Origin: Candidatus Zixiibacteriota bacterium
GTDB taxonomy: Bacteria; Zixibacteria; MSB-5A5; GN15; FEB-12
DNA: 64,000 bases
Direction: 5' to 3'
Assembly (NCBI GenBank): GCA_022571845.1
Contig: JACZXB010000001.1
Coordinates: 62,001-126,000, forward strand
The position numbers and the translations under genes were made by a program. Of this stretch, positions 23,485 through 39,906 are shown piece by piece (the first letter of the stretch is position 1; each line of letters opens with the position of its first letter). The notes beneath the pieces were generated by a model, which was not told where the DNA came from, ran no database searches, and saw only the letters and a program-made list of their open reading frames with translations.

Positions 23485-23515
23485 GGACATATATATTATT
23501 GTGATATGGAAACTT

Positions 23516-24724
23516 ATGACTACTGATGAAAAAATAGGGGCCGCCACCCCAAAGTGGAACTATCCTGAGCATATTCTCTCTTTGCAACCGTCGGTAATTC
23601 GAGAAATTCTCAAATTAACCTCAAGGCCTGAGATAATATCGTTTGCAGGAGGTCTGCCCGATCCATCGTTATTTCCGCTGGATGAAATAGCCGAATCTAC
23701 TAAACGAGCTCTGCAAGAATACAAAGGGGCAGCTGTTCAGTACACCTTGACACGGGGAATAACGCCTCTTCGGGAGCTTCTGGCAAAAAGAATAAGCGAT
23801 AGAGGAGCCGCGACTGAGGTCGCTAATCTGCTGGTAACCTCGGGCGCGCAGCAGGCAGTCGATATGGTCACCCGCGTGCTGACCGAGCCGGGGGACACAG
23901 TGCTAACGGAATACCCGACCTATGTGGGAGCGCTACAGATTTTCGATTACAGGCAAATTAATGTAGTCTCGGCCGAAATGGATGAAAACGGCCTGATAAC
24001 AGACCAGGCCGAAGAACAAATCATCAAGCACCAGCCGAAACTGATTTATACCGTGTCTACTTTTCAGAATCCAACCGGCATTTCTATGTCCGAAGAAAGA
24101 CGCCTTAAATTAATTGAGCTGGGCCGGAAATATGGCATTCCTATTGTTGATGACACGCCCTACAACGAGCTCAGATTCACAGGCCAAAATATTCCCACAT
24201 TGAAAGCTCTGGGCGGGGACGATGTTATAACAATTCATACGGTAGCCAAGATACTTGCTCCCGGTCTCAGACTCGGCTGGATTAACGCCAGAAAGGATTT
24301 CATTAACGTAATTGAAAAGATAAAACAGTCCGATGACCTGCATGCCGGTACTTTGAATCAGTATATATGCCATGATTTTTGTAAGAGGGGATTGCTTGAA
24401 CCACACATTGAAAAAATAAAAAAACACTATGGCGCTAAGAGAAATCTGATGCTCTCAGAGATAGAAAAGCAGTTTCCGGCTGGAATCAAGTGGACCAGAC
24501 CCGATGGCGGACTATTCCTCTGGGTAGAACTGCCAGAGCATCTATCGGCCAGGGAGCTGCTTGAAAGAGCTCTAAAAAAGAATGTGGCATTCGTGTATGG
24601 CCAGCCGTTTTACCCGGATGGCTCGGTCACCAACACTTTCAGACTAAATTTTGCCACCGCTACCCATGAGAGAATTGTAGAAGGAATTTCTCGGCTGGGC
24701 AGTCTCTTAACAGAGGTAATTTGA
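23516..24724 (+). CDS. PLP-dependent aminotransferase, class I/II (LysN/aromatic-type)
   Basis: Fold type I aminotransferase of 402 residues from the ATG at 23516 (the frame is open to 23456 without a better start). Landmarks are ISFAGGLPDPSLFP, VTSGAQQAVDMVTRVLTEPG, TVSTFQNPTGISMS, VDDTPYNELRF, and the PLP-lysine region IHTVAKILAPGLRLGW. This resembles the MocR/LysN/2-aminoadipate group, many members of which also act on aromatic 2-oxo acids. Its stop lies one base before the leader peptide ATG, and the leader's ribosome site is within its last codons. Placement at the head of the operon fits a role in the last step to Phe or Tyr. Being upstream of the attenuator, it would be made even when the rest is shut off. 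Confidence 0.88.
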   Translation: MTTDEKIGAATPKWNYPEHILSLQPSVIREILKLTSRPEIISFAGGLPDPSLFPLDEIAESTKRALQEYKGAAVQYTLTRGITPLRELLAKRISDRGAATEVANLLVTSGAQQAVDMVTRVLTEPGDTVLTEYPTYVGALQIFDYRQINVVSAEMDENGLITDQAEEQIIKHQPKLIYTVSTFQNPTGISMSEERRLKLIELGRKYGIPIVDDTPYNELRFTGQNIPTLKALGGDDVITIHTVAKILAPGLRLGWINARKDFINVIEKIKQSDDLHAGTLNQYICHDFCKRGLLEPHIEKIKKHYGAKRNLMLSEIEKQFPAGIKWTRPDGGLFLWVELPEHLSARELLERALKKNVAFVYGQPFYPDGSVTNTFRLNFATATHERIVEGISRLGSLLTEVI

Positions 24725-24725
24725 A

Positions 24726-24785
24726 ATGAAGTTTTATTGGTACAGCTGGTGGCTAAGAGATAAAGAGGATGGTTTTCCGGTATAA
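24726..24785 (+). CDS. Aromatic-rich leader peptide of the trp/aro superoperon
   Basis: A 19-residue reading frame beginning MKFYWYSWW: Phe3, Tyr4, Trp5, Tyr6, Trp8, Trp9, then a charged tail and TAA at 24783-24785. It has a ribosome site (AGAGG, 24712-24716) inside the end of the aminotransferase gene. The position, one base after an aminotransferase stop and 27 bases before an intrinsic terminator hairpin that precedes trpE, is that of a classical trp leader. Ribosome stalling at the aromatic codons, when charged tRNA is scarce, would leave the antiterminator strand free. Three Trp codons make Trp the main signal; Tyr and Phe may add to it. It would be a regulatory peptide with no function of its own. 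Confidence 0.85.
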   Translation: MKFYWYSWWLRDKEDGFPV

Positions 24786-24821
24786 TGACCCTGCTGATAC
24801 GCACAATTTTTGGTCTGCCGG
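24777..24821 (+). promoter_or_regulatory. Antiterminator of the aromatic attenuator
   Basis: CCGG (24777-24780) and GACC (24787-24790) can pair with CCGG (24818-24821) and GGTC (24812-24815), using the 5' arm of the terminator. The two hairpins therefore exclude each other. The leader stop codon (24783-24785) lies within the 5' strand, so a ribosome that finishes the leader blocks this pairing and allows termination. Confidence 0.65.
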
Positions 24822-24837
24822 ACGGCAGGCCTTTTTT
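24812..24837 (+). terminator. Attenuator terminator before the trp genes
   Basis: GGTCTGCC (24812-24819), loop GGAC, GGCAGGCC (24824-24831): an 8-bp stem with one G-T pair, followed by six T (24832-24837). It lies between the leader peptide and the DapF-like gene, so it stops transcription before the trp genes rather than marking an operon end. Confidence 0.88.
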
Positions 24838-24876
24838 ATTGAAGTAAAGTGTCAGGAAAGTTAACTAGAGCAATAT

Positions 24877-25716
24877 ATGCAGATTAAGTTCTACAAATAT
24901 CAGGCCCTGTCTAATGATTTCATTCTAGTAGACAGCAGCCAGAGCAAAATTTCTAAGCAGTCGCTTTCAAATACTGTCCGACAAATTTGCCACCGCAACC
25001 GGGGTGTAGGCGCCGATGGCCTGTTATACCTGAGTAAAGCAAAAAACGACACGGTCGCGGTCGATGTATATAACGCTGATGGCGGCTGGGCCGAAAAATC
25101 GGGCAATGGTCTTCGTATAGCAGGATTGCACCTGCACAGACGAAATCCCAAGAAGCGAAACTTTGTTATCAGCATGGGTGGAACAGAAAGCAGAGTAACG
25201 CTTATCAGTAAAGCAAAACGCGAAGCAATGCTAACTACCGAAATCGGCAGACCAAGCTTTGAAACATCGGAGATTCCGGTCAAATCCAAATCGCAATTCA
25301 TGATAAACTCAACATTAGACCTTGATGGCATAGAATTTCCTGTAACCTGCTTATCGCTTGGCAATCCTCATGCAGTTTTGTTTGTAGATAACTTCGATTT
25401 TGACTGGCAGCAAATCGGGGCCGATATAGAAAATCACGAACTGTTTCCGAATGGCATTAATGTAGAGTTTGTCAAAGTTATCTCTTCTAAGAAACTGCAA
25501 GTAACTGACTGGGAAAGAGGCACCGGCCCAACTGGCTCATCGGGGACAGGCGCTGCAGCGGCGGTAGCGGCCTCAGTTATGCTGGGAGTAGCAGGACGCA
25601 AATGTAAAGTCGTTTTTGAAATGGGGCAAATAGATGTGAACTGGAGAGAATCTGACGATATCATTGAAATAAGCGGACCTGTCGAATTTATCTGTGAAGG
25701 AACATTTGAGTCATAA
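24877..25716 (+). CDS. DapF-like epimerase-fold protein lacking both catalytic cysteines
   Basis: Diaminopimelate-epimerase fold, 279 residues, the normal length. Recognisable are KYQALSNDFILVD, CHRNRGVGADGLLYL, VYNADGGWAEKSGNGLRIAG, LSLGNPHAVLFVD, NGINVEFVKV and WERGTGPTGSSGTGAAAAVA. In active DapF the two acid/base residues are Cys in the motifs xxCGNG and xCGTG; here both are Ser (residues 75 and 222), while the surrounding substrate loops are kept. It probably does not racemise diaminopimelate. It is the first gene after the Trp attenuator and overlaps trpE by one base (TAATG), so a role tied to aromatic metabolism is more likely. PhzF, a DapF-fold isomerase without the Cys pair that acts on a chorismate-derived compound, is a loose precedent. 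Confidence 0.8.
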   Translation: MQIKFYKYQALSNDFILVDSSQSKISKQSLSNTVRQICHRNRGVGADGLLYLSKAKNDTVAVDVYNADGGWAEKSGNGLRIAGLHLHRRNPKKRNFVISMGGTESRVTLISKAKREAMLTTEIGRPSFETSEIPVKSKSQFMINSTLDLDGIEFPVTCLSLGNPHAVLFVDNFDFDWQQIGADIENHELFPNGINVEFVKVISSKKLQVTDWERGTGPTGSSGTGAAAAVAASVMLGVAGRKCKVVFEMGQIDVNWRESDDIIEISGPVEFICEGTFES

Positions 25717-27179
25717 TGATTAGTTTTAAGAAAGCCCGGGAATTAAGCAGCCGGGGGAATGTTGTGCCGGTATTTGAAAAGATTCCGGCAGACTTAGATA
25801 CACCTGTTTCAGCTTTTATTAAACTTGCTGCTGATAAGAAAGAAAGTTTCCTTTTGGAATCTATTGAAGGCGGCGAGAAACTCGCCCGTTATTCATTCTT
25901 AGGATTCGACCCATACCTTGTAGTAGAAAGCTCCGGCGACAACCTCACCGTTCGCAGCGGCAGAAACACTCAAAACGTGACCGAAAAACCAATATCGTTT
26001 ATTAGAAATCTTTTCAAGGAGTATCGCCCGGTAAAAGTGCAGGGTCTGCCGCGTTTCACCGGCGGCGGAGTCGGCTACTTCGCCTATGACACAATCCGCT
26101 GGGTTGAGAAGATACCTGATAATAATCAGGACACAATTGGCCTGCCCGATATGAGACTGTCTCTTTACAGCCGGATAATCGCATTTGACCACCTTAAACA
26201 GGAAATACTCATAATCGCAAATTTGGTAACAGGCGATTCCCAAAAAACACTCAAGCAGCAATATAACGATGCCACCAGATGGATCAGACAATCTGTCAAA
26301 AAGCTAACCATGCCGCTGCCTGTTCACGCCAGAAGAAGCGACAATCATAAGTCTGGCAAAGTCATCGCTCATACATCTAAGCGGACATTTGAAAACATTG
26401 TCCGTAAAGCAAAGCACTATATTAAAGAGGGTGACGTCTATCAGGTTGTGCTTTCGCAAAGATGGGAAATCAAATCTAACTGTTCGGCGCTAAATGTTTA
26501 TCGCCGCCTGAGACGGATAAATCCTTCTCCTTACATGTTCCTTTTGAATTTTGGAAACAACGCGGTAGTTGGTTCTTCGCCAGAGATGATGGTCCGCATT
26601 GAAAAAGATATCATTGAAACCAGGCCGATAGCCGGTACCAGACCAAGAGGCAAAAACGAAGCGGAAGATGCCAAATTGATTGCAGATTTGCTGGCTGATA
26701 AGAAGGAATTGTCCGAGCATACAATGTTGTTGGATCTTGGCAGAAACGATGTTGGCCGGGTCAGCAAGACTGCTACTGTTAAAGTAAAAGATAATATGAT
26801 TATTGAAAAATATTCGCACGTGATTCATATTGTCAGTTCAGTCGTAGGAGAGATAAACAAAAAACACAAACCGATAGACGGACACTTCGCCTGTTTTCCG
26901 GCCGGTACAGTTTCCGGAGCGCCAAAAATTCGCGCCATGCAAATTATCGATGAGCTCGAAACAGAGCGCCGCGGTATTTACGCCGGTTCAATCGCCTATC
27001 TGGACTTTTGGGGGAACCTTGATTCCTGCATAGCTATTCGCACTTTGGTTAAAAAAGATAACAAATATTACATACAGGCCGGAGCTGGTATTGTGGCCGA
27101 TTCCAAACCGTCCCGTGAGTTCAAGGAAACTGAGTCCAAAGCTCGCGCGGCTATACAAGCCGTGACAGGGGAGAATTAA
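25716..27179 (+). CDS. trpE: Anthranilate synthase component I
   Basis: Converts chorismate to anthranilate using ammonia from TrpG, the first committed step to Trp. Length 487 residues. The N-terminal domain has the Trp-feedback motif LLESIEGGEKLARYSFLG (about 47-64). The catalytic chorismate-binding domain (about 220-480) has VYQVVLSQRW, NPSPYMFLLNF, SSPEMMVRIE, ETRPIAGTRPRG, SEHTMLLDLGRNDVGRV and the C-terminal FPAGTVSGAPKIRAMQII. The retained feedback motif suggests the enzyme is inhibited by Trp in addition to control by the attenuator. Its ATG shares one base with the stop of the DapF-like gene, and trpG follows after 3 bases. Confidence 0.97.
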   Translation: MISFKKARELSSRGNVVPVFEKIPADLDTPVSAFIKLAADKKESFLLESIEGGEKLARYSFLGFDPYLVVESSGDNLTVRSGRNTQNVTEKPISFIRNLFKEYRPVKVQGLPRFTGGGVGYFAYDTIRWVEKIPDNNQDTIGLPDMRLSLYSRIIAFDHLKQEILIIANLVTGDSQKTLKQQYNDATRWIRQSVKKLTMPLPVHARRSDNHKSGKVIAHTSKRTFENIVRKAKHYIKEGDVYQVVLSQRWEIKSNCSALNVYRRLRRINPSPYMFLLNFGNNAVVGSSPEMMVRIEKDIIETRPIAGTRPRGKNEAEDAKLIADLLADKKELSEHTMLLDLGRNDVGRVSKTATVKVKDNMIIEKYSHVIHIVSSVVGEINKKHKPIDGHFACFPAGTVSGAPKIRAMQIIDELETERRGIYAGSIAYLDFWGNLDSCIAIRTLVKKDNKYYIQAGAGIVADSKPSREFKETESKARAAIQAVTGEN

Positions 27180-27182
27180 ATT

Positions 27183-27746
27183 TTGCTTCTGCTTTTAGAT
27201 AATTATGATTCCTTCACCTATAATCTGGTTCAGTATCTTAGCGAACTGGGGGCCGATATCAGAGTATTTAGAAACGATGAGATTACTATTTCAAAAATTA
27301 AAAAACTTAAACCAAAATCGATCGTACTCTCACCCGGCCCGGGCAGACCAGAAAACGCCGGTATCATGAATGATCTGGTAAAACAACTGACTGGCTCCGT
27401 TCCTATTCTCGGGGTTTGCCTGGGCCATCAGTCTATTGCTCAGGTTAACGGGGCCACAATCGGCTACGCCCCGGTACTTATGCACGGTAAGACATCCGAA
27501 ATTTCACATAATAATTCTACTTTGTTTAAGCAGGTGCCGTCACCGTTTACCGCCACCCGCTATCATTCACTGGTAGTTGAACGCGACACTATTCCAAAAA
27601 GTTTAAAAATTACAGCCTGGACTGATAAAACAGTCATGGCTGTCGAAAATAAAGAGAAGAAGCTTTATGGAGTGCAGTTTCATCCGGAATCGATACTGAC
27701 TGCGCAAGGCAAAAACATATTAAACAATTTTCTAAAAAGCGTATAG
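27183..27746 (+). CDS. trpG: Anthranilate synthase component II (glutamine amidotransferase)
   Basis: Class I glutamine amidotransferase that supplies ammonia to TrpE; 187 residues from a TTG start at 27183, the only start giving the usual opening LLLLDNYDSFTYNLVQYL. The catalytic Cys lies in GVCLGHQSI (about residue 80), and the His and Glu in GVQFHPESI (about 169-172). The oxyanion motif reads LSPGPGRPENAG. It is a stand-alone subunit, not fused to TrpD. A stand-alone TrpG can also serve folate synthesis (PabA), but no pab gene is present here. Confidence 0.95.
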   Translation: MLLLLDNYDSFTYNLVQYLSELGADIRVFRNDEITISKIKKLKPKSIVLSPGPGRPENAGIMNDLVKQLTGSVPILGVCLGHQSIAQVNGATIGYAPVLMHGKTSEISHNNSTLFKQVPSPFTATRYHSLVVERDTIPKSLKITAWTDKTVMAVENKEKKLYGVQFHPESILTAQGKNILNNFLKSV

Positions 27747-27748
27747 CT

Positions 27749-28762
27749 ATGCAAGAGTTTATCAAAAGAGTAGTTTCAAAAGAAAACCTTTTTCAGGAGG
27801 AAGCATCCAAAGTAATGGAAATCATGATGCAGGGTGAAGCTACTCCGGCGCAGATAGCAGGTTTTTTGGTGGCGCTAAAATTGAAAGGGGAGACCGCCGA
27901 AGAAGTAGCCGGTTTTGCCAAAACGATGCGCAAGCATTCGGTTAAGATTGAAATCGATGACAAGAACGCTGTCGATGGCTGCGGCACAGGCGGTGATGGC
28001 TCGAACTCTTTCAATATTTCAACTGCAGCGGCAATAGTAGCTTCGGCTGCCAGCGTCACTGTAGCCAAGCATGGCAACCGCTCGGTAAGCTCAGCCTGCG
28101 GCTCGGCAGATATTTTAGAAGCCAGCGGCGCCAAAATCGACCCCGGTATAAGCGTGGTCGAGAAAACCATAAATGAACTGCAGTTTGGTTTCATGTTTGC
28201 GCCCCGTTTTCATCCGGCCATGAAATATGCCGCCGCACCACGAAAAGAGCTGGGAGTAAGAACCGTATTTAATATCCTGGGACCAATGACAAACCCGGCC
28301 GGAGTCAAAAGACAGGTCATTGGTGTTTACGATCAATTCCTGATGAAGCTGGTAGCCGAAGTAATGAAACTCTTAGAATCAGAACACGTACTGGTCGTAC
28401 ACTCGCGCGACGGTATGGACGAATTCTCTGTTTGTGCACCAACCGATTTCCTGGAACTAAAAGACGGCGAAATAAACAGCAGAACCATTACCCCACTTGA
28501 AGTAGGACTCACTACCTATCCCTCGGAATCCTTAGCGGGCGGAGATGCCGGTCATAATCTCACAATACTAAACGATATCCTTGAGGGTGAGGACACCAGC
28601 TATCGCGAGGCGGTATTGTTTAATGCCGGGGCGCTGATTTATGTGGCGGGCAAAGCTGATTCAATCTGGGATGGTGTTTCAGCAGCCCGGGACGCTATCG
28701 ACTGGGGAGCGGCTAAGCAAAAATTCCAAAGCTGGATAAAGGCCACAAAACAAATACCTTGA
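27749..28762 (+). CDS. trpD: Anthranilate phosphoribosyltransferase
   Basis: Transfers phosphoribose from PRPP to anthranilate, the second step of the Trp branch. The protein has 337 residues. Motifs are the PRPP loop CGTGGDGSNSFNIST (about 76-90), KHGNRSVSSACGSADILEASG, FAPRFHPAMKYAAAPRKELG with the anthranilate-binding Arg, and FNILGPMTNP. It begins 3 bases after trpG. It is followed not by trpC but by a transporter gene whose possible TTG start overlaps its stop (TTGA). Confidence 0.97.
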   Translation: MQEFIKRVVSKENLFQEEASKVMEIMMQGEATPAQIAGFLVALKLKGETAEEVAGFAKTMRKHSVKIEIDDKNAVDGCGTGGDGSNSFNISTAAAIVASAASVTVAKHGNRSVSSACGSADILEASGAKIDPGISVVEKTINELQFGFMFAPRFHPAMKYAAAPRKELGVRTVFNILGPMTNPAGVKRQVIGVYDQFLMKLVAEVMKLLESEHVLVVHSRDGMDEFSVCAPTDFLELKDGEINSRTITPLEVGLTTYPSESLAGGDAGHNLTILNDILEGEDTSYREAVLFNAGALIYVAGKADSIWDGVSAARDAIDWGAAKQKFQSWIKATKQIP

Positions 28763-28770
28763 TATTTATC

Positions 28771-30096
28771 ATGAATCATACAACCGAAAAAATAGAAGTT
28801 ACTGAAAAGAATAAAAATTTCTGGCAGCGCAGCCGTGGTGGAGTCGGTTCATATCTGGCTACTCTCAGGATGTTTTCCCGTAACGCCAGACTCTATCTGA
28901 TTGGTTCCTTCTTGATGGGAGTTAATTTTCATGTTTTTCAGCTGCTATTAAATCTCTATCTCAAGGAGTTAGGTTTTGTTGAAAGTCAGATAGGTCTGGT
29001 AATCTCGGCCAGAGCTCTTGGTGCAGCATTACTGGCTATTCCGGTCGCAATGGTTCTCAGCCGGGTTAGGCTCAAGCCACTCTTGTTAACAGGCTGTATA
29101 ATGATGGCTGCTTTCAGTTATTTTATTACAACTATGGATGAACTCATTTTACTTATGGGCTTTTCTCTTTTGACCGGAATGTCGTTTGCGTTTTTTCGTG
29201 TAGCCAGCGGTCCCTTCTATATGAGGAACTCTACTCCGGCTGAGAGAACCCACCTGTTTTCGCTTTCGTTTGGAATGATGCTGCTGGCAGGTATGGTCGG
29301 TTCCTTGTTCTCAGGAACACTTGTAATTATGCTGACAGACTTTACTGGCGATATCGTATCGGGCTATCGCTATACGTTATATTTGGGAATAGTAGCCAGC
29401 ATCCTGGCTTTGATTCCCTTTTCGATGGTCAAAGCGAATCCTCCCTCGACTGAGGAAAGCAAAATTTCATTCAATCTGAATCAAATCAGAAGCAGAGGCG
29501 GCTTTTATTTTAAGATTACCGTTGCAAATTTTATAGTGGGGCTTGGCGCCGGACTTATTATTCCATTTCTAAATCTCTATTTCCGAGATAGATTTGGTCA
29601 GCCTCCTGACCGCATTACTTTCTTTTATTTCCTGGCCCATCTGGTTATGTTGGTCGGAATTATGATCGGACCGATTATGGCCAAGAAAATAGGGCTGGTC
29701 AGAGCGGTAGTAACCGCACAGCTGTCTTCGATTCCCTTTATGTTAATTCTTTCTTATAGCGATTTTCTACCGCTGGTTCTGCTGGCCTTTGTATTAAGAG
29801 CCGGGCTTATGAATATTGGCGTGCCGATAATTACTAACCTTGCCATGGAGCTGTCTGAGAAGTCTGAACAGGGACTGGTCAGCGCTCTTTTAATTGTGGC
29901 CTGGACCTCGGCCTTGATGATATCGTCAGCATTGGGGGGAGTGCTCATTGAGAATTTTGGATATACTGTTACTATCAATATTACTATTATGATTTATCTC
30001 GTTGCGACTTTAATATTCTACTCACTATTTAAAAATGCAGAGACCAGGCAGAACGGAAAAAAACCCTGGACTCTGGTGCGCGAGGTAATCAATTGA
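28771..30096 (+). CDS. Major facilitator superfamily transporter inside the trp operon
   Basis: Twelve-segment membrane transporter of 441 residues. MFS features are visible: the loop between segments 2 and 3 reads SRVRLKP, segment 4-5 contains RVASGPFYMRNSTPAER, and there is a central cytoplasmic loop at about residues 215-235. No substrate-specific motif is recognised. Its gene is locked between trpD and trpC: an upstream TTG at 28759 would overlap the trpD stop, and its own stop overlaps the trpC start (TTGA). The first ATG is at 28771; which start is used is unsure. Position suggests export or import of an aromatic compound or pathway intermediate, which is inference. Confidence 0.85.
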   Translation: MNHTTEKIEVTEKNKNFWQRSRGGVGSYLATLRMFSRNARLYLIGSFLMGVNFHVFQLLLNLYLKELGFVESQIGLVISARALGAALLAIPVAMVLSRVRLKPLLLTGCIMMAAFSYFITTMDELILLMGFSLLTGMSFAFFRVASGPFYMRNSTPAERTHLFSLSFGMMLLAGMVGSLFSGTLVIMLTDFTGDIVSGYRYTLYLGIVASILALIPFSMVKANPPSTEESKISFNLNQIRSRGGFYFKITVANFIVGLGAGLIIPFLNLYFRDRFGQPPDRITFFYFLAHLVMLVGIMIGPIMAKKIGLVRAVVTAQLSSIPFMLILSYSDFLPLVLLAFVLRAGLMNIGVPIITNLAMELSEKSEQGLVSALLIVAWTSALMISSALGGVLIENFGYTVTINITIMIYLVATLIFYSLFKNAETRQNGKKPWTLVREVIN

Positions 30097-30872
30097 CTAA
30101 TATACTTCAAGAAATAGCAGCACACAAAAGAAGCGAAGTTGCCCAGCTAAAAACGGAACTTACTTTAAGCGAGATTGAGAACCAGCTTGAGACAGATGAC
30201 CGTCTCGATTTCGGAGCTGCTCTTTTAAGATCCGATAGAGTTAATATTATTGCTGAGATAAAAAAAGCATCACCTTCCAGAGGCGTCTTGATAGAAGATT
30301 TTGATATTGAAAAGCTGGCCGCCTCTTATAGAGATGGAGGTGCGGCAGCGCTGTCTGTTCTGGCCGACAAGAAATATTTTCAGGGATCGCCTGAGTATGT
30401 TGCAACTGCTAAGTCTGTATCAAGACTTCCTGTACTTTACAAAGAGTTCATAGTAGACGAATTTCAGATTCCTTATGCCAGGCTCAAAAAAGCCGACTCC
30501 ATACTGCTGATTGTGAGTATTCTAAAAGATGATGAAATTAAGAGCATGATTAAGCTTGCAGAAAAGTGTTGTCTCGATGTTATCGTTGAGGTTCACGATA
30601 GCTCCGAAGCCAAAATTGCTATTGACTGCGGCGCCCAAATAATCGGAGTCAACAACCGCAACCTCAAAAATTTTTCTGTTTCTCTGAAAACCTCCGAATC
30701 AATGAGCGCTATAATTCCTGATGATATCATAAAAATTGCAGAGTCAGGAATATTTGAACCGGCCGATATCAGACACTTAAAAGAATTCGGGTATAACTGC
30801 TTTTTAATCGGTGAAGCCCTGATAAAATCAACCGACCCGGTAAACCTTTTGAGGTCCCTGGTATCTGCATGA
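30093..30872 (+). CDS. trpC: Indole-3-glycerol-phosphate synthase
   Basis: Ring-closing step of Trp synthesis, a TIM barrel of 259 residues. Motifs are IIAEIKKASPSRG (catalytic Lys and Glu, about residues 50-62), ALSVLADKKYFQGS, VLYKEFIVDEFQI, LDVIVEVHD and IIGVNNRNLKNF, ending ESGIFEPADIRHL and CFLIGEALIKS. TTG at 30093 is the start; it overlaps the stop of the transporter gene by 4 bases, and no ATG occurs before the conserved region. It is separate from TrpF, unlike the fused enzyme of enterobacteria. The next gene, trpF, overlaps it by 4 bases. Confidence 0.96.
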   Translation: MTNILQEIAAHKRSEVAQLKTELTLSEIENQLETDDRLDFGAALLRSDRVNIIAEIKKASPSRGVLIEDFDIEKLAASYRDGGAAALSVLADKKYFQGSPEYVATAKSVSRLPVLYKEFIVDEFQIPYARLKKADSILLIVSILKDDEIKSMIKLAEKCCLDVIVEVHDSSEAKIAIDCGAQIIGVNNRNLKNFSVSLKTSESMSAIIPDDIIKIAESGIFEPADIRHLKEFGYNCFLIGEALIKSTDPVNLLRSLVSA

Positions 30873-31510
30873 AGCATTTTCAAATAAAAGTCTGCGGCAT
30901 AACCCGTGCTGGAGATGCTCTGTTAGCAGCCAGACTCGGAGCCGATATGCTTGGCTTCATATTTTATAAGAAATCGCCAAGATATATTTCAGCTACTGCT
31001 GCAAAAAGCGTCATTGAGAAGATTCCCGCTACCATCGACCGGGTTGGTGTTTTTGTAGATGCCGATTTAGACACACTGCTTAAGACAGCCGGCCGTCTCA
31101 AGCTCGACTACGTTCAGCTGCATGGAAAAACTACTAATTCTATGATTAAGAAACTTAAAACGTCAGGACTCAAAGTAATCCAAGCCTTTCATATTGAGAG
31201 CAAATCAGACTATAAGAAAGCCGCAGCCAGCATTGCTGATATTTTACAACTGGATAACTCGTTCACGGATAAGCCGGGAGGAACCGGCCAGAAATTTGAC
31301 TGGAATATCAGACCAAAGTCAATAATCCCAAATCTTATGCTGTCGGGTGGTATCTCTGCCGACAATATTTTAGAGGGTATAAGAATGTTCAGCCCCATTA
31401 TAGTAGATGTTAACTCAGGAGTCGAAATTTCTCCAGGAAAAAAATCAGAAAAAAAGCTAAAGCAGTTCTTTAGTATATGTGATAGAATCAGATATGGCAC
31501 AAAGAGTTAA
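30869..31510 (+). CDS. trpF: Phosphoribosylanthranilate isomerase
   Basis: Amadori rearrangement step between TrpD and TrpC; TIM barrel of 213 residues. It opens [20 protein letters not shown] with the catalytic Cys in VCGITR (residue 8), then [35 protein letters not shown] and the C-terminal phosphate site [12 protein letters not shown] with [10 protein letters not shown]. The catalytic Asp usually found in LLDxxxxxxxGGTG is present as [20 protein letters not shown]. Its end overlaps the start of trpB by 17 bases if trpB begins at its ATG. Confidence 0.95.
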
Positions 31511-32693
31511 AAGAGGCCCTGACAGCAAAGGCAGGTTCGGTCCCTATGGCGGACAGTATGTTCCAGAGACAGTAATGTACGCTCTGGCCGAACTTGAGAT
31601 GTCATACCGAAAGCTCAAGAAAGACAAGTCATTTCTGGCCGAACTGCGAGGCTACCTATCGGATTATGTCGGCCGCCCCAGCCCCCTCTATTTTGCTGAG
31701 AGGTTTACGGCATATCTCAAAGGTCCCAAAGTTTATTTCAAACGTGAGGACTTAAACCATACCGGCGCCCACAAAATCAATAATACGGTCGGACAGATTC
31801 TCCTGGCCAAGCACATGGGCAAAAAACGGATAATTGCCGAAACCGGCGCCGGACAACACGGCCTGGCCACTGCCACAGTTTGTGCCCGTTTTGGAATGGA
31901 GTGCATCATTTATATGGGAGCCGTGGATATAAAGAGGCAGGCATCCAATGTCGAGAAAATGAAACTTTTGGGAGCTAAAGTTGTCACGGTAGAGTCAGGC
32001 TCGAAAACACTAAAAGATGCCACCAGCCAGGCTATGCGCGACTGGGTTACAAATATCCGCTCGACGTTTTACATTATAGGCTCGGTAGTCGGGCCGCATC
32101 CATATCCGATGTTGGTGCGCGATTTTCAGTCAATAATCGGCAAAGAAACCAAACGACAGTGCCAGAAGAAATTTCGCAGACTCCCGGATGCTATCATAGC
32201 CTGCGTGGGGGGAGGCTCCAATGCTATTGGCATCTTTGACTCTTTCATAAACGAAAAATCGGTAAAACTGATCGGGGTAGAAGCAGCCGGACATGGACTC
32301 AATTCCGGCCAGCATGCCGCCACTCTGTCCAAAGGAAAACCGGGAGTTCTCCACGGCTCTTACAGTTACCTGGTATATGACAACGACGGCCAGATAATAC
32401 TGCCGCATTCTATATCCGCCGGACTTGATTACCCGGGAGTCGGGCCGGAACATTCAGCCTTGAGTGATACGGGACAGGTGAAATATTTTAGCGCTACCGA
32501 TAAACAGGCGCTGGCGGCCTTTGAACTAGTTTCGAAACTCGAAGGAATAATTCCAGCGCTTGAGACATCGCATGCTCTGGCCTATTTAATTGCTCACAAG
32601 AAAGAGTTCAAAGCCAGGCAAAACGTGGTCGTCTGCCTTTCCGGACGAGGTGACAAAGATATGCCAATCTTTTTTGAGAAAGAGAAGGCCTAA
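31494..32693 (+). CDS. trpB: Tryptophan synthase beta chain
   Basis: PLP enzyme that joins indole and serine to make Trp; 399 residues from the ATG at 31494 (a GTG at 31479 is possible). The opening [16 protein letters not shown] is typical. PLP-lysine: [25 protein letters not shown] appears as [14 protein letters not shown], the phosphate cup is [10 protein letters not shown], and the C-terminal [10 protein letters not shown] is present. It is the TrpB1 form that pairs with TrpA, whose gene starts 3 bases later. Confidence 0.97.
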
Positions 32694-32696
32694 AAG

Positions 32697-33482
32697 TTGA
32701 ACCGCATTCGTACATACCTAAATCAGATCAAAAAGCAGAAGCTGCTGATTCCGTTTATAACGGCTGGTTATCCCGACAGCAGCACAACTTTGAATCTTAT
32801 CAAAGCGGCCATAGATTCAGGCTGCGATATGATTGAGATAGGCTTTCCGTTTTCTGATCCGCTGGCCGACGGAGCGGAAGTTCAGTTTTCTTCCTATCAT
32901 GCTCTAAAAAACGGTATGACTCTTGCCAGGACTCTGCGAATTGCGGAGCAAGTCAGAAAAACCAGCGATGTTCCACTTATCTTGATGGGCTACTACAATC
33001 CTGTTTTAAGCTACGGCGAAAACCAATTCATGAAAGATGCAACGGCTGCAGGTGTCGACGGCCTGATAATTCCGGACCTGCCCGTATCTGAAGCTTCAGA
33101 TTATATGCGAAATGCGATAAAACATGACATCTCTACCATATTCTTAGCAGCCCCGACCACAGACAAAAATAGCCTGAAGCAAATAGATAAGAGCTGCTCA
33201 GATTTTGTCTACGCTGTCACAGTAACCGGCGTAACCGGGGGCGGCAAGGTTTTTGGAAGAGATACCGATAACTACTTGAAAGAGCTGGGCCAAGCGCTAA
33301 ATAAGAAATTTGTGGCAGGATTTGGGATTTCGTCGCCAGAAACAGCCAGACGGTTTTGTAAATACAGTGACGGCGTTGTCATCGGTTCAAAATTGATTTC
33401 GCTGATACGAAGTGCCAAAAGCAAATCGCAAGGCGTAAGAGATGCAGCCAGATTTTTGAGTTCAGTTCGCAGGGCAATTTAA
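32697..33482 (+). CDS. trpA: Tryptophan synthase alpha chain
   Basis: Cleaves indole-3-glycerol phosphate and channels indole to TrpB. The protein has 261 residues from a TTG start. Catalytic Glu lies in DMIEIGFPFSDPLADG (about residue 48) and the catalytic Asp in GLIIPDLPVSEASD. Other landmarks are LMGYYNPVLSYG, YAVTVTGVTGGG and VAGFGISSPETA with GVVIGSKLI. The stop overlaps the start of the chorismate mutase gene (TAATG). It completes a full set of seven trp genes within 8 kb. Confidence 0.97.
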   Translation: MNRIRTYLNQIKKQKLLIPFITAGYPDSSTTLNLIKAAIDSGCDMIEIGFPFSDPLADGAEVQFSSYHALKNGMTLARTLRIAEQVRKTSDVPLILMGYYNPVLSYGENQFMKDATAAGVDGLIIPDLPVSEASDYMRNAIKHDISTIFLAAPTTDKNSLKQIDKSCSDFVYAVTVTGVTGGGKVFGRDTDNYLKELGQALNKKFVAGFGISSPETARRFCKYSDGVVIGSKLISLIRSAKSKSQGVRDAARFLSSVRRAI

Positions 33483-33772
33483 TGGCCAAAAAAGATTTAA
33501 AAGACTTCAGAGAAGAAATTAATTCTATAGATATCGAACTGTTGTTCCTTTTTAACAGAAGAGCCAATCTGGTTATAGATCTTGCTCTAATTAAAAAGAG
33601 TCAAGGGAAGAAACTGTTCGACCCGGAGCGTGAAAGAGATATTTTCGTATCGCTGACTGAAAAGAATCCCGGACCGTTAACACCAGACGCTGTAGTACGA
33701 CTATTTGAGCGGATAATAGATGAATCGCGCCGGTTGGAACGAACCCAAGTTTACAACAAGAAAGAGAAGTAA
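33482..33772 (+). CDS. Chorismate mutase, AroQ-alpha type
   Basis: Rearranges chorismate to prephenate, the entry to Phe and Tyr. This is a small all-helical protein of 96 residues. Residues matching the active site of the AroQ fold: Arg in DFREEINSID, Arg in LFNRRANLV, Lys in IKKSQGKK, and the Arg/Glu pair in DPERERDIF. There is no fused dehydratase or dehydrogenase domain. It stands directly before a DAHP synthase gene (9 bases), an order that recalls the fused CM-DAHP synthases of other bacteria; here the two are separate but could form a complex, allowing prephenate or chorismate control of the first step. The complex is inference. Confidence 0.9.
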   Translation: MAKKDLKDFREEINSIDIELLFLFNRRANLVIDLALIKKSQGKKLFDPERERDIFVSLTEKNPGPLTPDAVVRLFERIIDESRRLERTQVYNKKEK

Positions 33773-33781
33773 AGAGCTGCC

Positions 33782-34795
33782 ATGGTTATCGTAATGGAAA
33801 ATACCGCCACCAAAGAGCAGATTGAACTGGTCTGTCAGAAACTGATTGATCACGGTTTTGATATCCATCGCTCGACCGGCAGCAACCGCACAGTTCTGGG
33901 AGTAGTTGGGGACACTCAGCAAGCCGACACCAGAGACTACGAAGTTATGGACGGCGTTCACGAAGTGCTACGTGTAACCGAGCCATACAAACTTGCCGGT
34001 CGAACATTTGGTCCGGAAAACTCAATAGTCAAAGTAAAAGATGTTGAATTTGGCGGCAGCAAAATCGTCCTGATGGCCGGTCCCTGCTCAATTGAATCGC
34101 GGGACCAGATAAAGAAAATCGGCGGCCTCTTAAGTCCGCTTTCAACAAGAATTCTCAGAGGCGGAGCCTATAAGCCCCGCTCTTCTCCCTATTCCTTTCA
34201 AGGACTGGGAGAAGAGGGCTTGAAATACCTTCGTGAAGCCGGCGACACTCACAATATGGCAGTAGTTTCAGAAGTAATGGACCGGGCAGATATTCTACCA
34301 GCCTTAAAGTACGTTGACATCATACAGGTCGGCGCCCGCAATATGCAAAATTTCGCATTGTTAAAAGAACTTGGCAAAGTAGACAAACCTATTCTTCTCA
34401 AACGCGGCATGTCGGCAACATTGCAGGAGCTTCTAATGGCTGCCGAATATATCCTGTCAGGCGGCAACCATGAAGTGATCCTCTGTGAAAGAGGAATCCG
34501 CACGTTTGAGAACTATACCCGCAACACTATGGACATCTCGGCTATTCCGATATTGAAAACTTTGACCCATCTGCCGGTTGTGGCAGATCCTTCACATGGT
34601 ACCGGCATTCGAAAACAGGTCGCTCCCATGGCCAGAGCTGCTGTTGCCGCCGGAGCCGACGGCCTTCTGATTGAGGCCCACTACGACCCCGAAATTGCCT
34701 TCTCAGACGGCGCCCAGACTCTTTATATTGAGCAGTATGAAAAACTGGTTGAGGAGCTGAAAATAGTGGCCTCGGCTGTCGGACGCTCTATCTAG
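33782..34795 (+). CDS. aroF: DAHP synthase (type I-beta, with N-terminal regulatory domain), copy 1
   Basis: First step of the shikimate pathway: condenses phosphoenolpyruvate and erythrose-4-phosphate. The 337 residues include a ferredoxin-like N-terminal domain (1 to about 70, MVIVMENTATKEQIELV ... GVVGD), as in the Thermotoga enzyme, where it mediates Tyr/Phe inhibition. The barrel has [69 protein letters not shown] and [10 protein letters not shown]. It differs from the second copy (37547-38563) across the regulatory domain, so the two are probably inhibited by different end products. It follows chorismate mutase and precedes argS by a 99-base gap. Confidence 0.95.
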   Translation: MVIVMENTATKEQIELVCQKLIDHGFDIHRSTGSNRTVLGVVGDTQQADTRDYEVMDGVHEVLRVTEPYKLAGRTFGPENSIVKVKDVEFGGSKIVLMAGPCSIESRDQIKKIGGLLSPLSTRILRGGAYKPRSSPYSFQGLGEEGLKYLREAGDTHNMAVVSEVMDRADILPALKYVDIIQVGARNMQNFALLKELGKVDKPILLKRGMSATLQELLMAAEYILSGGNHEVILCERGIRTFENYTRNTMDISAIPILKTLTHLPVVADPSHGTGIRKQVAPMARAAVAAGADGLLIEAHYDPEIAFSDGAQTLYIEQYEKLVEELKIVASAVGRSI

Positions 34796-34894
34796 TTTTA
34801 TTGCGATTGCTCCAAGCTTTATCCTTAAGCCTTAAAACTTGTAGATTTGGCCAGAGCTCAGTAGTATTATAGTCTTAAGGAATTTTAGATTTAA

Positions 34895-36709
34895 ATGGCA
34901 AAAGATAAGTTCAAAATTAGTTTCTGTGAGGCGACTGCTGCTGCTTTCAAATCCTTGTATGCAGACAAGTATGAAGATATCGGCAACGTTCAGATTTTCA
35001 GTTCAGAATTTATATATGATAACCTGGAAAAACCAAAAGACCCGTCAATGGGCAGGTTCGCCCTGCCAGTATTTCGGTTTGGGAAACTCTTAGAAGATAA
35101 GCCGCCCAGCATCGCAGCCAAAGTAGCGCCTGAGTCAAACAAGTTTTTAGGTAGATCGCAAAACGGTCCAGCTATTGTCAAAATTGAAGCTGCCGGCGGA
35201 TTTTTAAACGCCAGACCAAACGCAGAACTAGCCGCCAGTTCAACCATTGAAGCAGTACTTACGGCTGGCAAAGACTACGGAAACAGCACTGTCGGACAGC
35301 AGCGTAAAATTCTAATAGAATATTCATCGCCGAATATAGCCAAGCCATTCGGAGTAGGGCACCTTCGTTCAACCATGATAGGCAACTCGCTTCGTAAAAT
35401 TTTCAAAGCGCTCGACTATGATACCATGGGTATCAATTTTCTAGGCGACTGGGGCACACAGTTCGGCAAAATGATTGTCGCTTACCGTAAATGGGGCGAC
35501 GAAAATACTTTAAAAAATAATTCAGTTCAAAATCTGCTTGAACTTTATATAAAGTTTCATGAAACGGCTAAAGAAGATAGCAGTCTTGATGATGACGCGC
35601 GTGAGGTATTCAAAAAACTTGAGCAGGGCGAAAAGTCCGAAGTAGAGCTATGGGAGAAGTTCAAGAGCATATCGCTGACAGAATTCGACCGCATTTATAA
35701 AATGCTGGGAGTTCAATTTGACTGGATAACCAGTGAGTCATTCTTAAACGACAAGATGACTGCTGCCATTGAGTCTCTAGAAAAAGCAGGACTTACTTCC
35801 ATATCCGAAGGCGCCTTGATCGTTGATATCGACGACCCGCAGCTGCCACCGGTACTACTGCGCAAAGCCGATGGCGCCACATTATACGCTACCCGTGATG
35901 TTGCCGGCTTGTTCTATCGCTGGCAGGAGTACAAATTTTACCAGTCGCTATATGTAGTCGGCTCGGCCCAGTCTGACTATTTTAAGCAACTTTTTAAACT
36001 CATAGAGCTAAAGGAAAAGGCCGAGTCGCTGAGTGACGACGACAGCATGAGCGGTAAGGTCAGGCATATAGAATTCGGCTGGGTAAAGTTTGGTGATAAA
36101 GCTATGTCAACCAGACGGGGCAACATTGTAATTCTTGAGGATGTCATAAACAAAGCTGCTGAGCTTGCTAAAAAGCGAATCAAAGAAAAGAACCCCAACC
36201 TCAAAACTATTGAAGAAACATCGCGAATTATAGGCACCGGTGCCGTAATATTTTCACAGCTATCGGTACGTCGTCAGAAAGATGTACGATTTGATTGGGA
36301 CCAGGTGCTTAACTTCGAGGGAGAGACCGGGCCATACCTTCAATACACGCATGCCAGACTCTGTTCGCTTTTGAGAAATTATGACGGCAATGTTTCATCT
36401 GACATAGACTTTGCTCTTCTGGCAGGCAACGAAGAATCCCGTGTGATTGATTTGCTTGCGGATTTTCCGGAAACGATAGAAGACGCTGCCCGCGACTATG
36501 ATCCGTTTTATATTGCTGCCATGCTTTTAAAACTTGCCGGTGCCTTTAATAGGTTTTATCAGCGAAAAAATGCACAAGGGAAAATTGACAGAATCTTATC
36601 AGATGACAAAGAACTATCAGCCGCGCGGATAGCACTAGTAAAATCAGTTCAGCTGGTAATAAACAAAGGTCTCTACCTGTTAGGGTTAGAGGCGCCCCAA
36701 GAGATGTAG
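34895..36709 (+). CDS. argS: Arginyl-tRNA synthetase
   Basis: Class I aminoacyl-tRNA synthetase charging tRNA-Arg; 604 residues. An N-terminal additional domain (1 to about 125, D-loop recognition) precedes the catalytic Rossmann fold with YSSPNIAKPFGVGHLRST, NFLGDWGTQFGKMI and the second signature MSTRRGNIV (about 407-415). The C-terminal anticodon-binding helical domain includes RQKDVRFDWDQVLNFEGETG and YTHARLCSLLR. In the HIGH-type motif the first His is Gly (GVGH), a non-standard form. The gene sits inside the aromatic superoperon, 2 bases before tyrA, with a 99-base gap upstream that could hold a promoter. It is the only gene of the run with no link to aromatics. Confidence 0.95.
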   Translation: MAKDKFKISFCEATAAAFKSLYADKYEDIGNVQIFSSEFIYDNLEKPKDPSMGRFALPVFRFGKLLEDKPPSIAAKVAPESNKFLGRSQNGPAIVKIEAAGGFLNARPNAELAASSTIEAVLTAGKDYGNSTVGQQRKILIEYSSPNIAKPFGVGHLRSTMIGNSLRKIFKALDYDTMGINFLGDWGTQFGKMIVAYRKWGDENTLKNNSVQNLLELYIKFHETAKEDSSLDDDAREVFKKLEQGEKSEVELWEKFKSISLTEFDRIYKMLGVQFDWITSESFLNDKMTAAIESLEKAGLTSISEGALIVDIDDPQLPPVLLRKADGATLYATRDVAGLFYRWQEYKFYQSLYVVGSAQSDYFKQLFKLIELKEKAESLSDDDSMSGKVRHIEFGWVKFGDKAMSTRRGNIVILEDVINKAAELAKKRIKEKNPNLKTIEETSRIIGTGAVIFSQLSVRRQKDVRFDWDQVLNFEGETGPYLQYTHARLCSLLRNYDGNVSSDIDFALLAGNEESRVIDLLADFPETIEDAARDYDPFYIAAMLLKLAGAFNRFYQRKNAQGKIDRILSDDKELSAARIALVKSVQLVINKGLYLLGLEAPQEM

Positions 36710-36710
36710 C

Positions 36711-37556
36711 ATGTCGACTAGACCTGTCAAGAAAATAACGATTTGCGGATTCGGATTAATCGGCGGCTGCATGGTCCTCGATTTTCTAAGAGGAGCAGGT
36801 AAAGTTCAGATAACCGCCTTTGATAAGCCTGCCGTTTTAAAGCGACTTAAAAAGAACCGCAAGTTTCCTGTCAAAACAGAGCCAATTCTACGAAAAGCAG
36901 TAGCTGGCTCAGATATTATTATTCTTTCGGCTCCTCATAAAGCAAATGAGGCCAACCTGAAGCGTCTCTCCAAAATCAATACCCTGACAGATACTCTAAT
37001 AATTGATACCGGCGCCGTAAAACTGCCCATTCTAAAGCTGTCTTTAAAACTTAGCTTTCCCAATGGCACCCAATTTTTGCCGAGTCATCCGATGGCCGGC
37101 CGGGAAAAAGCAGGATTTGAGAATTCTGGCTCAGGCCTGTTTGAAAATCATTGCTGGTTTATTGATGAATCGGTCAGACTAAGCCGGGAAAACAGAGCCA
37201 GGCTTGACTGGATGGTCAATAAACTGCGAATAAAACCTACCTTCATTAAGGCCGGCGTTCATGACCAGCTGATGGCCGAAATTTCGCACCTGCCACAATT
37301 GATTTCTACTATATTGGGGGGGCAGGTTGCAACTGAGCTGGTTCCGCTGGCCGGTCCCGGACTTCGCTCAATGCTCCGCCTCTCAGGTTCGCCATATTCT
37401 GTTTGGTCGGAAATTATAGACCAAAACAGGCCGGAAATAATTAAATCACTTGAAAATTTCAGAAATAACCTTAATAAGGTAATTGGAATAGTTAAGTCAA
37501 AAGACTCGCTCGCCAACATATTTAAGGCATCCGCCAGGAGCTATGAATGCTTATAG
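36711..37556 (+). CDS. tyrA: Prephenate dehydrogenase
   Basis: Oxidises prephenate to hydroxyphenylpyruvate on the way to Tyr. The protein has 281 residues. The Rossmann NAD(P) motif ICGFGLIGGCMVLDF lies at residues ~11-25. The dehydrogenase domain has LSAPHKANEANL, FLPSHPMAGREKAGFENSG (substrate-binding His) and the helical part HDQLMAEISHLPQLIST. There is no ACT domain, so feedback inhibition may be absent or work differently, and no fused chorismate mutase. The gene begins 2 bases after argS and overlaps the second DAHP synthase by 10 bases. Confidence 0.93.
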   Translation: MSTRPVKKITICGFGLIGGCMVLDFLRGAGKVQITAFDKPAVLKRLKKNRKFPVKTEPILRKAVAGSDIIILSAPHKANEANLKRLSKINTLTDTLIIDTGAVKLPILKLSLKLSFPNGTQFLPSHPMAGREKAGFENSGSGLFENHCWFIDESVRLSRENRARLDWMVNKLRIKPTFIKAGVHDQLMAEISHLPQLISTILGGQVATELVPLAGPGLRSMLRLSGSPYSVWSEIIDQNRPEIIKSLENFRNNLNKVIGIVKSKDSLANIFKASARSYECL

Positions 37557-38563
37557 TAATGGAGGCAAACGCCACCAGCCAGATGGTGGAAAACGTTTGT
37601 ACTGAAATAGAAAAAATGGGGCTCAAAGCCCATGCCATGCCGGGCGCTCAGCGCACTGCCATCGGAGTCACCGGCAATAAGGCTCAAGTAGATTCCGACC
37701 GCATCCTGGCCCAGGCTGGCGTTAAAGAGATAATTCATGTAACCAAGCCTTACAAGCTGGTTAGCAGGGAGTTCTATCCTGAGAACTCTGTGATTGAGAT
37801 ATCCAGCGATGTCAAAATCGGCGGCGATAAAATAGTCATAATGGCGGGGCCCTGCTCGGTCGAAAGCCGTGACCAGTGCCTGCGAATTGCCGAAAGGGTT
37901 GCCAAAGCCGGCGCCAAAATATTTCGTGCCGGTGCCTATAAACCGAGAACTTCACCTTACTCCTTTCAGGGCCTGAAAGAAGAGGGCCTGAAAATTCTTG
38001 CCGAAGTAAGAAAGCAGCACAATCTCCTGATAGTAACCGAAGCGATTGATACAGAAACTCTCGGACTGGTTGCTGAATATACGGATATAATCCAGATTGG
38101 CGCCCGCAACATGCAGAACTATTCGCTATTGAAGAAAGCCGGTCAGCAGCCTAAACCGGTTCTGCTCAAGCGGGGCATGTCGGCCACATTGGATGAACTC
38201 CTGATGGCTGCCGAGTATATCTTAAATGAAGGTAACCGAAAAGTAATTCTGTGTGAAAGAGGAGTGCGGACTTTTGCTGACCATACCCGCAACACCCTTG
38301 ACCTTTCGGCCATTCCGTTTGTAAAAAGAATGAGTCACCTGCCGATTATTGCCGACCCCAGTCACGGTACAGGCCGACGCGACAAAGTCTTGCCGCTGTC
38401 CAGGGCCTCACTGGCAGTAGGTGCCGATGGGCTGCTGATAGAGGTCCACCATGACCCGGCCAATGCCTTATCCGATGGTCAGCAGTCGATAACACCTGAC
38501 ACTTTTGATTTACTTACCAAAGAGATGCAGGCAATTGCTTCTGTCATGGGGCGTAGCTGCTGA
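37547..38563 (+). CDS. aroF: DAHP synthase (type I-beta, with N-terminal regulatory domain), copy 2
   Basis: Second paralogue of the first shikimate-pathway enzyme, 338 residues. It has the same layout as copy 1: ferredoxin-like regulatory domain ([17 protein letters not shown] ... TAIGVTGNK), linker [13 protein letters not shown], then the barrel with [71 protein letters not shown] and [10 protein letters not shown]. The ATG at 37547 lies after AGGAG and overlaps the tyrA stop. The linker is closer to the Thermotoga sequence than that of copy 1. Placement between tyrA and aroA suggests that this copy serves the general pathway or responds to Tyr; the ligand cannot be read from sequence. Confidence 0.95.
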
Positions 38564-39906
38564 TGAAGCGACAGCTCAAACGATCCAAAAAAGTGAAAGG
38601 AATTATCACCGTACCGGGTGATAAGTCTATCGCCCAGAGAGCGGCTCTTTTTTCAATTTTATCGAGCGGCCCTATTACTGTTACTAATTTTCCAGATGGC
38701 GCAGACTGTCAAAATTCTCTCAATGCAGCGGAGCAACTTGGTGTAAAAATAGAGCAAGTTGAGGGGAGACTAAAACTCAGGCCGCCTGAAAATAACACTC
38801 TGCCCAGGCAAGCGACAGTCGACTGCGGTAATTCCGGCACCACCGCCAGACTTTTATCAGGCATTGCGGCGGGATCAAATATCGAGCTGACTCTTATCGG
38901 TGATGAATCACTCAGCCTGAGACCAATGAAAAGAGTTATTGAACCTCTTACAGAAATGGGAGCAGAGTTTTTTTGTGAAAATGGAAGTTTACCCTTAAAA
39001 ATCAGAGGCAAGAAACTGCTGCCCTTTGAGTATAAACTTCCGGTGGCTTCTGCGCAGGTAAAGTCGGCGCTGCTTCTGGCCGGCCTGGCTTCGCACTGCT
39101 CGGTTGTCATACGCGAAGACAGTTTCACCCGCGACCATACCGAAAGAATGCTGGCCGAAATTGGAGAAGGAATAGAAACCAGAAAAATCAAAGCGGTTCC
39201 TGTAGAACACCCGGATGACCCGCGCAAAAAGAAAATGGTAATGCCTGAGCCGTTCAAATATGAGGCCAAACTCTCCGCCCAGGCAGCAGTTAAAGGCGGC
39301 GAAATAAATATTCCCGGAGATATTTCAACAGCTTCGTTTTTTATGACGGCGGCTGCTATAACACAGGGGACGGTGACTATCAAAAACGTCGGCCTTAATC
39401 CTACCCGGACTGCCTTTATAGACCACCTGAAAATAATTGGCTGCGAAGTTAAAATTTCTGACAAAGAAACCATATCGGGCGAGCCAAGGGGAACCGTCAC
39501 AGTAACTGGTTTAAAGCTAAAACCCAGAAAAATATCCGGTGATACGACTGTCGGATTAATTGATGAAATCCCACTGGTAGCGATTTTAGCTTCTTTTACC
39601 GAGGGAACAACGGTAATTCGTGATGCCGCTGAGTTAAAAGTTAAAGAATCTAACAGGCTGGAAGCTATCCACCACAACCTGAATCTCACCGGAGCAAAGT
39701 GCGGGCTGCTCGATGACGGACTGGCTATTCAAGGCGGCCGTGAATTATCCGGTGCCGACTTTGTTGGTTTCGGAGACCATCGCATCGTCATGGCATTTTC
39801 AATAACGGCTTTGTCGCTGGCTGGTCCTTCGACAATCGATGATGATTCCCCGGCAGCTGTTTCCTGCCCCGGGTTTTATGACATTCTGGAGTCGATTATA
39901 AGATGA
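38563..39906 (+). CDS. aroA: 3-phosphoshikimate 1-carboxyvinyltransferase (EPSP synthase)
   Basis: Sixth step of the shikimate pathway, joining phosphoenolpyruvate to shikimate-3-phosphate. The protein has 447 residues in two inverted domains. Motifs are VPGDKSIAQRAALFS (residues ~19-33), DCGNSGTTARLLSG, GDESLSLRPM, VASAQVKSALLLAGL, the catalytic Asp in VGLIDEIPLVA, LKVKESNRLEA and GFGDHRIVMAFS. The PEP-site loop reads NSGTTARL, whereas common glyphosate-sensitive enzymes have LGNAGTAxRP; I cannot predict sensitivity from this. A long antisense open frame across it is a shadow. It overlaps its neighbours by 1 and 4 bases. Confidence 0.97.
   Translation: MKRQLKRSKKVKGIITVPGDKSIAQRAALFSILSSGPITVTNFPDGADCQNSLNAAEQLGVKIEQVEGRLKLRPPENNTLPRQATVDCGNSGTTARLLSGIAAGSNIELTLIGDESLSLRPMKRVIEPLTEMGAEFFCENGSLPLKIRGKKLLPFEYKLPVASAQVKSALLLAGLASHCSVVIREDSFTRDHTERMLAEIGEGIETRKIKAVPVEHPDDPRKKKMVMPEPFKYEAKLSAQAAVKGGEINIPGDISTASFFMTAAAITQGTVTIKNVGLNPTRTAFIDHLKIIGCEVKISDKETISGEPRGTVTVTGLKLKPRKISGDTTVGLIDEIPLVAILASFTEGTTVIRDAAELKVKESNRLEAIHHNLNLTGAKCGLLDDGLAIQGGRELSGADFVGFGDHRIVMAFSITALSLAGPSTIDDDSPAAVSCPGFYDILESIIR

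Follow-up and report, generated by a model that had tools for sequence, protein, structure and literature searches.

The segment at positions 24726-24837 of the window (the whole 64,000-nt stretch of Candidatus Zixiibacteriota DNA that was analyzed) very probably represents a ribosome-mediated transcription attenuator. It is quite likely a composite attenuator for Trp and Tyr that governs the entry of RNA polymerase into dapF-trpEGD-MFS-trpCFBA-aroQ-aroF-argS-tyrA-aroF-aroA-aroE. An earlier note had claimed ribosome-mediated attenuation of a trp/aro superoperon, and this claim is well supported, because species of the genus retain the frame and the same plan recurs throughout the class with complementarity maintained between different sequences. 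The case is read from the DNA itself: the frame, its ribosome site, the terminator, the exclusive pairing, the conservation in the genus, the class-wide plan and the agreement between codons and operon content. The comparison set comprised 133 genomes at class level; labels starting with f, g, G or L are working codes.

The leader frame (24726-24785) was read directly from the forward strand, on which all features of the window described here are located. It contains 19 codons (MKFYWYSWWLRDKEDGFPV, then stop): the ATG at 24726 is followed by AAG TTT TAT TGG TAC AGC TGG TGG CTA AGA and then by GAT AAA GAG GAT GGT TTT CCG GTA, with the TAA at 24783-24785. A putative ribosome-binding site (AGAGG, 24712-24716) is located 9 nt 5' of the ATG. 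This reading bears out a 19-codon frame with a ribosome site and the order Phe-Tyr-Trp-Tyr-Ser-Trp-Trp at codons 3-9, as had been claimed. The presumptive control codons Tyr4, Trp5, Tyr6, Trp8 and Trp9 (24735-24752) are identical in four species of the genus g1.

The ATG lies 1 nt past the stop codon (24722-24724) of a class I/II PLP aminotransferase gene (23513..24724; Pfam PF00155, E 2.6e-33), which is probably co-transcribed with the leader. No good sigma-70-like promoter was found between the aminotransferase gene and the g1 leader, and the leader must therefore be transcribed from the aminotransferase gene or from an unseen promoter. A leader located 5' of the aminotransferase gene instead was sought in the window and in other f1 genomes, and none was convincing. 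Within 24700-24762, base pairing can form between the 3' terminus of the aminotransferase gene (TCTCTTAACAG) and the region of the Trp codons (CTGGTGGCTAAGAGA). It would enclose the leader start, and a role in the control of leader translation is possible.

Since the overall folding energy of the 151-nt stretch is ordinary (z -0.83), the case for an attenuator is built on anatomy and comparison. Ordinary folding is also what a chance small frame ahead of an ordinary terminator would show, but such a coincidence is barely credible. The window contains a single short frame with at least five aromatic residues, at least two of them Trp, per seven codons, and this frame is terminator-linked; 100 Markov sequences of the same dinucleotide content had a mean of 0.6 such frames and none of the 100 had one with a terminator. 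The conservation in the genus and the parallels at the same place across the class argue against chance as well.

The predicted intrinsic terminator (24812-24837) consists of a hairpin (24812-24831) with an 8-bp stem, GGTCTGCC-GGAC-GGCAGGCC, followed by TTTTTT, which matches the 8-bp hairpin with six T described before. The terminator 5' arm plus loop (24812-24822) forms the 3' strand of the antiterminator; the 5' strand spans 24776-24790 (24776-24782 plus 24787-24790), and the leader stop codon lies within this span. Pairing of 24776-24782 with 24816-24822 and of 24787-24790 with 24812-24815 yields 11 bp with a 4-nt bulge. The alternative pairing of two 4-nt blocks that the earlier note had proposed thus exists, but it is longer than written there. 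Folding also confirmed that the two states exclude each other, with the stop codon in the antiterminator strand as claimed. For 24763-24838 the best fold containing the antiterminator has -22.6 kcal/mol and the terminator state has -21.6 kcal/mol, and the antiterminator exceeds shuffled sequences in each g1 species (p 0.01-0.03).

Folding with a stalled ribosome was calculated on the assumption that 13 nt are covered ahead of the A-site. In silico, a ribosome at codons 5-9 leaves free RNA that folds best as the antiterminator, and a ribosome at the stop codon leaves the terminator as the sole remaining fold; with the ribosome at Phe3 or Tyr4 the terminator arm can pair otherwise before the 3' arm exists. 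When charged tRNA-Trp and tRNA-Tyr are ample, a ribosome translating the leader would reach the stop codon and mask 24776-24790, so that the terminator would form and transcription would end. A ribosome waiting at Tyr4, Trp5, Tyr6, Trp8 or Trp9 would keep the antiterminator 5' strand free for pairing with the terminator 5' arm, and transcription would continue, so that starvation for Trp or Tyr would relieve termination. Since all Tyr and Trp codons lie where stalling is expected to relieve termination, expression should rise when either amino acid is scarce, and the leader probably senses both jointly. The locus combines an intrinsic terminator before the first structural gene, an antiterminator that in silico is freed by stalling and masked at the stop, and a short frame with control codons that appear cognate to the operon product. 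An Rfam scan of the window and the region returned only tRNAs and no match to a known leader, T-box or riboswitch; Trp_leader (RF00513) was found neither at the gathering score nor at E up to 10.

The first gene past the attenuator is dapF (24877..25716; NCBIfam TIGR00652, E 1e-63), followed by trpE, encoding anthranilate synthase component I (25716..27179; NCBIfam TIGR00564, above the cut-off). These matches agree with the dapF-like gene and trpE that had been placed directly past the hairpin. Then follow trpG, trpD, an MFS transporter gene, trpC, trpF, trpB and trpA (27183..33482; assigned from the ORFs and relatives with the same order), a gene for an AroQ-type chorismate mutase (33482..33772; Pfam CM_2 PF01817, E 3.8e-22) and aroF, argS, tyrA, aroF, aroA and aroE (33782..40763; order kept in families f1, f3 and f7). 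The whole gene order is common to f1 (G034), f3 (G041, G038) and f7 (G069, without the MFS gene). By its gene content the unit unites the shikimate pathway entry with the branches to Trp and Tyr. The downstream unit of trp and shikimate/Tyr genes described earlier is hence confirmed, except that the chorismate mutase gene had been overlooked. The 300 nt that separate trpA from aroF were considered as a site for a second attenuator, which was ruled out since this gene fills them. The argS gene (34895-36709) lies inside the superoperon, a linkage that is kept across f1, f3, f7 and f19. dapF, a lysine/peptidoglycan gene, leads the unit, and the order aminotransferase-dapF-trpE is found in f1, f3, f11 and f19. 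The TrpE proteins of the nearest Candidatus Zixiibacteriota genomes are 96% and 93% identical.

In the four g1 species the leader reads M(KF/NV)YWYSWWLRD(K/R)ED(G/S)(F/Y)PV before the stop. The YWYSWW codons are invariant and the adjacent codons vary. Conserved Trp, Tyr and Phe codons had been predicted for aligned relatives: the Trp and Tyr codons are identical in all four species, but Phe3 is missing in two of them, where KF is replaced by NV (Val in G002 and G003). In G002, a change of codon 17 from TTT to TAT and a C to T change in the loop jointly gain one antiterminator pair.

Most other sampled f1 genera with the same gene order have a terminator at the same site and no leader. A hairpin kept with the frame lost, which the earlier note had named as evidence against its proposal, is thus absent in g1 and present in most other sampled genera of f1; the leader is patchy in this family and dispensable, because most of these genera do without it. 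In the relatives without leader, a promoter-like TTG...TAT sequence (-10 element poor to fair) follows the terminator and dapF starts a few bases further on. This arrangement, together with the missing clear promoter of the g1 leader, would suit a relic, in which the terminator just ends the aminotransferase transcript, dapF-trp has a promoter of its own and the leader has lost its regulatory role. For g1 we consider this quite improbable: the frame, the aromatic codons, the ribosome site and both pairings are maintained in all four species, the paired changes in G002 add to the antiterminator, and the promoter-like sequence past the terminator is degenerate. This degenerate element could provide a bypass of an otherwise functional attenuator.

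Across the class about 35 Trp-leader attenuators were found before trp operons, distributed over many families. The f3 leaders occupy the same gap as in g1 and have TTGCCT-16/17-TATA(C/G)T-like promoters 7-9 nt 5' of the ATG (L050, L053, L054, L056); the mRNA that carries them is probably leaderless. In f7 and f19 the leaders also precede dapF. A leader directly adjoining trpE stands in f2, f4, f5, f10, f18 and a part of f1; it mostly follows TTGACA/TATATT-like promoters, its typical core is YWWWY, and it is accompanied by an element, GATAGTGG, whose pairing partner is the terminator arm CCCGCTATC. Among the f1 genomes outside g1, G073 (g26) has a leader, which reads MHSILNLRWWRGTVAMRPDGEI up to its stop codon. 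Tandem attenuators, each with a leader and a terminator, are located before trpE in G037 (L057 4016-4375) and G043 (L055 3802-4202), and in G037 both leaders mix Tyr, Phe and Trp. Tandem attenuators are known from Salmonella mgtCBR (PMC3641672).

The antiterminators start 8-22 nt past the last Trp codon throughout the class and exceed dinucleotide shuffles of their own region in most cases (23 genera, combined Fisher p ~1e-19); taken alone, the pairing is not significant in most f3 members and in g26. The pairing elements differ by family (GATAGTGG, GATCGGTGGG, AGGCGG, GCGGGCGGG and TCCGG-GACC), each being complementary to its own terminator arm, and complementarity with unrelated sequences is kept in f3, f7, f19, g26 and g1. 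A covariance model, R1, was built from leaders of stand-alone trpE genes, and matches were taken up to E about 1e-4; it does not reach the g1 element. Among 13 aligned leaders, four terminator pairs have changed on both sides. Covariation in the antiterminator is hardly beyond shuffles within the R1 family, since the element is nearly invariant there, and support for the antiterminator therefore comes from the comparison between families and from the region shuffles. Two further Trp leaders, one with NQWWWCTCHWRW before a TrpB2-like gene (L284; G053:C468) and one with FWWWYTCQWRW before another gene (L283; G040:C113:39504, forward strand), suggest a wider Trp attenuator regulon.

To compare leader codons with operon content, two groups were defined. 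The merged group contains 19 leaders from 18 genomes in which a Tyr-branch gene (chorismate mutase and/or tyrA) is linked, an assignment made partly via close relatives or a second contig (G001, G003, G068, G047); the trp-only group contains 16 leaders of operons to which neither chorismate mutase nor tyrA is linked. Tyr lies no more than three codons away from the Trp run in 19/19 merged and 6/16 trp-only leaders (Fisher p 4e-5, which is not a true probability since the genomes are related). Tyr makes up 30% of the Trp-flanking codons in merged leaders, 7% in trp-only leaders, which have Trp runs and few Tyr, and 2.7% of the residues in the operon proteins. On the TrpE tree the linkage of chorismate mutase changes six times; among independent pairs, Tyr shifts with the linkage in all that are informative and against it in none, and with five to six pairs the sign test cannot reach 0.05.

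The covariance model R1 also matched sequences 5' of separate chorismate mutase-aroF-tyrA operons. These have a leader with a run of Tyr codons, free of Trp within the run, in 7/7 genomes: RYYRYYYYYNRQNDGG in G040, YVLYYYSYRRTRESG in G016, YSGYYYRYYYAF in G080 (with one Trp a few codons before the run), SFYYRYYFGF in G022, YNYIHYPAYYRR in G121, SYYYYCIYTR in G013 and RYGYYYYYALY in G073. Antiterminator pairing is strong in five of the seven (p 0.002 each) and has p 0.08 in G013; the value for G073 was excluded, as it had been scored on the wrong hairpin. Both forms occur together in G040, G016 and G073: the trp genes are preceded by a Tyr-free Trp leader, which has NWWWW in G040, and the Tyr-branch genes by a Tyr leader that lacks a Trp run.

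A leader that senses only charged tRNA-Trp, with Tyr and Phe codons being neutral or serving RNA structure or translation start-up, is unlikely on this evidence. Trp is indeed the one residue that no leader before trp genes lacks, and some trp-only leaders contain Tyr (YWWWY, g29). Immediately before the Trp run there is often a NAT or NAC codon, for Tyr or, in lineages without Tyr, for Asn, and a preference at the RNA level may account for some of the Tyr signal. Moreover, the AroR leader of C. glutamicum (Phe-Tyr-Phe), which controls aroF, is reported to respond to Phe and not to Tyr (PMC4046766, PMC11802643), so that the presence of a codon is no proof of sensing and specificity has to be read from codons with caution. 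Against Trp as the only signal, however, the Tyr frequency tracks the linkage of Tyr-branch genes, the separate Tyr-branch operons carry Tyr runs without a Trp run, and TAT and TAC are both used, which speaks for the amino acid and against the bases.

Sensing of Phe is distinctly doubtful, as is a true pan-aromatic leader. The pan-aromatic leader claimed by the earlier note stands for Trp and Tyr, whose codons are conserved and follow the operon content. Phe3 is retained in two of the four g1 species, Phe flanks the Trp run in the merged operons of G047, G011, G054 and G044 and lies in the 9-codon core of 9/19 merged versus 1/16 trp-only leaders, and chorismate mutase feeds Phe synthesis as well. 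Yet Phe3 is Val in G002 and G003, and the share of Phe among Trp-flanking codons in merged leaders (5.6%) is near the background of the operon proteins (4.3%) and not significantly different from that in trp-only leaders (0.9%; p 0.10). In addition, a Phe leader or attenuator before pheA was sought across the class and none was convincing. Many pheA genes (L303-L331) have a CCGATAA-like motif about 8-12 nt 5' of the ATG and lack a clear ribosome site.

The joint sensing of Trp and Tyr fits a broader reading that we consider reasonably likely: a modular attenuator, present across the class, in which the control codons would be rewritten as operons merge or split. Trp codons would be placed before trp genes, Tyr codons before chorismate mutase-aroF-tyrA, and both would be interleaved before the merged superoperon, where they would form an OR gate for two amino acids.

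Ribosome-mediated attenuation of trp operons is classical. The g1 locus resembles enterobacterial trpL (RF00513) in its adjacent Trp codons, the exclusive antiterminator and terminator, the stop codon near the antiterminator strand and the location before trpE. It differs from trpL in that Tyr is mixed with Trp, a protector hairpin competing with the antiterminator is not clear, Rfam gives no match, and the operon adds shikimate and Tyr genes, dapF and argS. S. meliloti trpL is leaderless, as the f3 leaders apparently are. Actinobacterial and Sinorhizobium trp attenuators use the same mechanism outside enterobacteria, but a tie to operon content is not reported for them. The ilvGMEDA and thr leaders are multivalent: a single leader carries codons for more than one amino acid that its operon produces. 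They share with the g1 leader the presence of several product amino acids in one leader; theirs are branched-chain amino acids or Thr and Ile, whereas here Trp and Tyr are combined, with split and merged versions within one phylum. The ilv and thr attenuators are named in PMC1183508. In actinobacterial trp leaders the number of Trp control codons is two or three (PMC1262725), and for the S. meliloti trpL attenuator the leader peptide is functional (PMC7298713). C. glutamicum AroR is likewise a ribosome-mediated attenuator with two different aromatic residues, and its target is a DAHP synthase gene; unlike here, Trp codons are not reported and trp genes are absent. A literature search, in which subscription papers were thinly covered, yielded no pertinent report on attenuation in Zixibacteria, an uncultured phylum, on a Trp-Tyr composite or on leaders with tyrosine codons.

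The split and merged forms constitute a natural experiment, in which the regulatory codons apparently track operon content. They make the origin of multivalent attenuation directly testable, and short leader frames of this kind let the regulatory specificity of uncultured bacteria be read.
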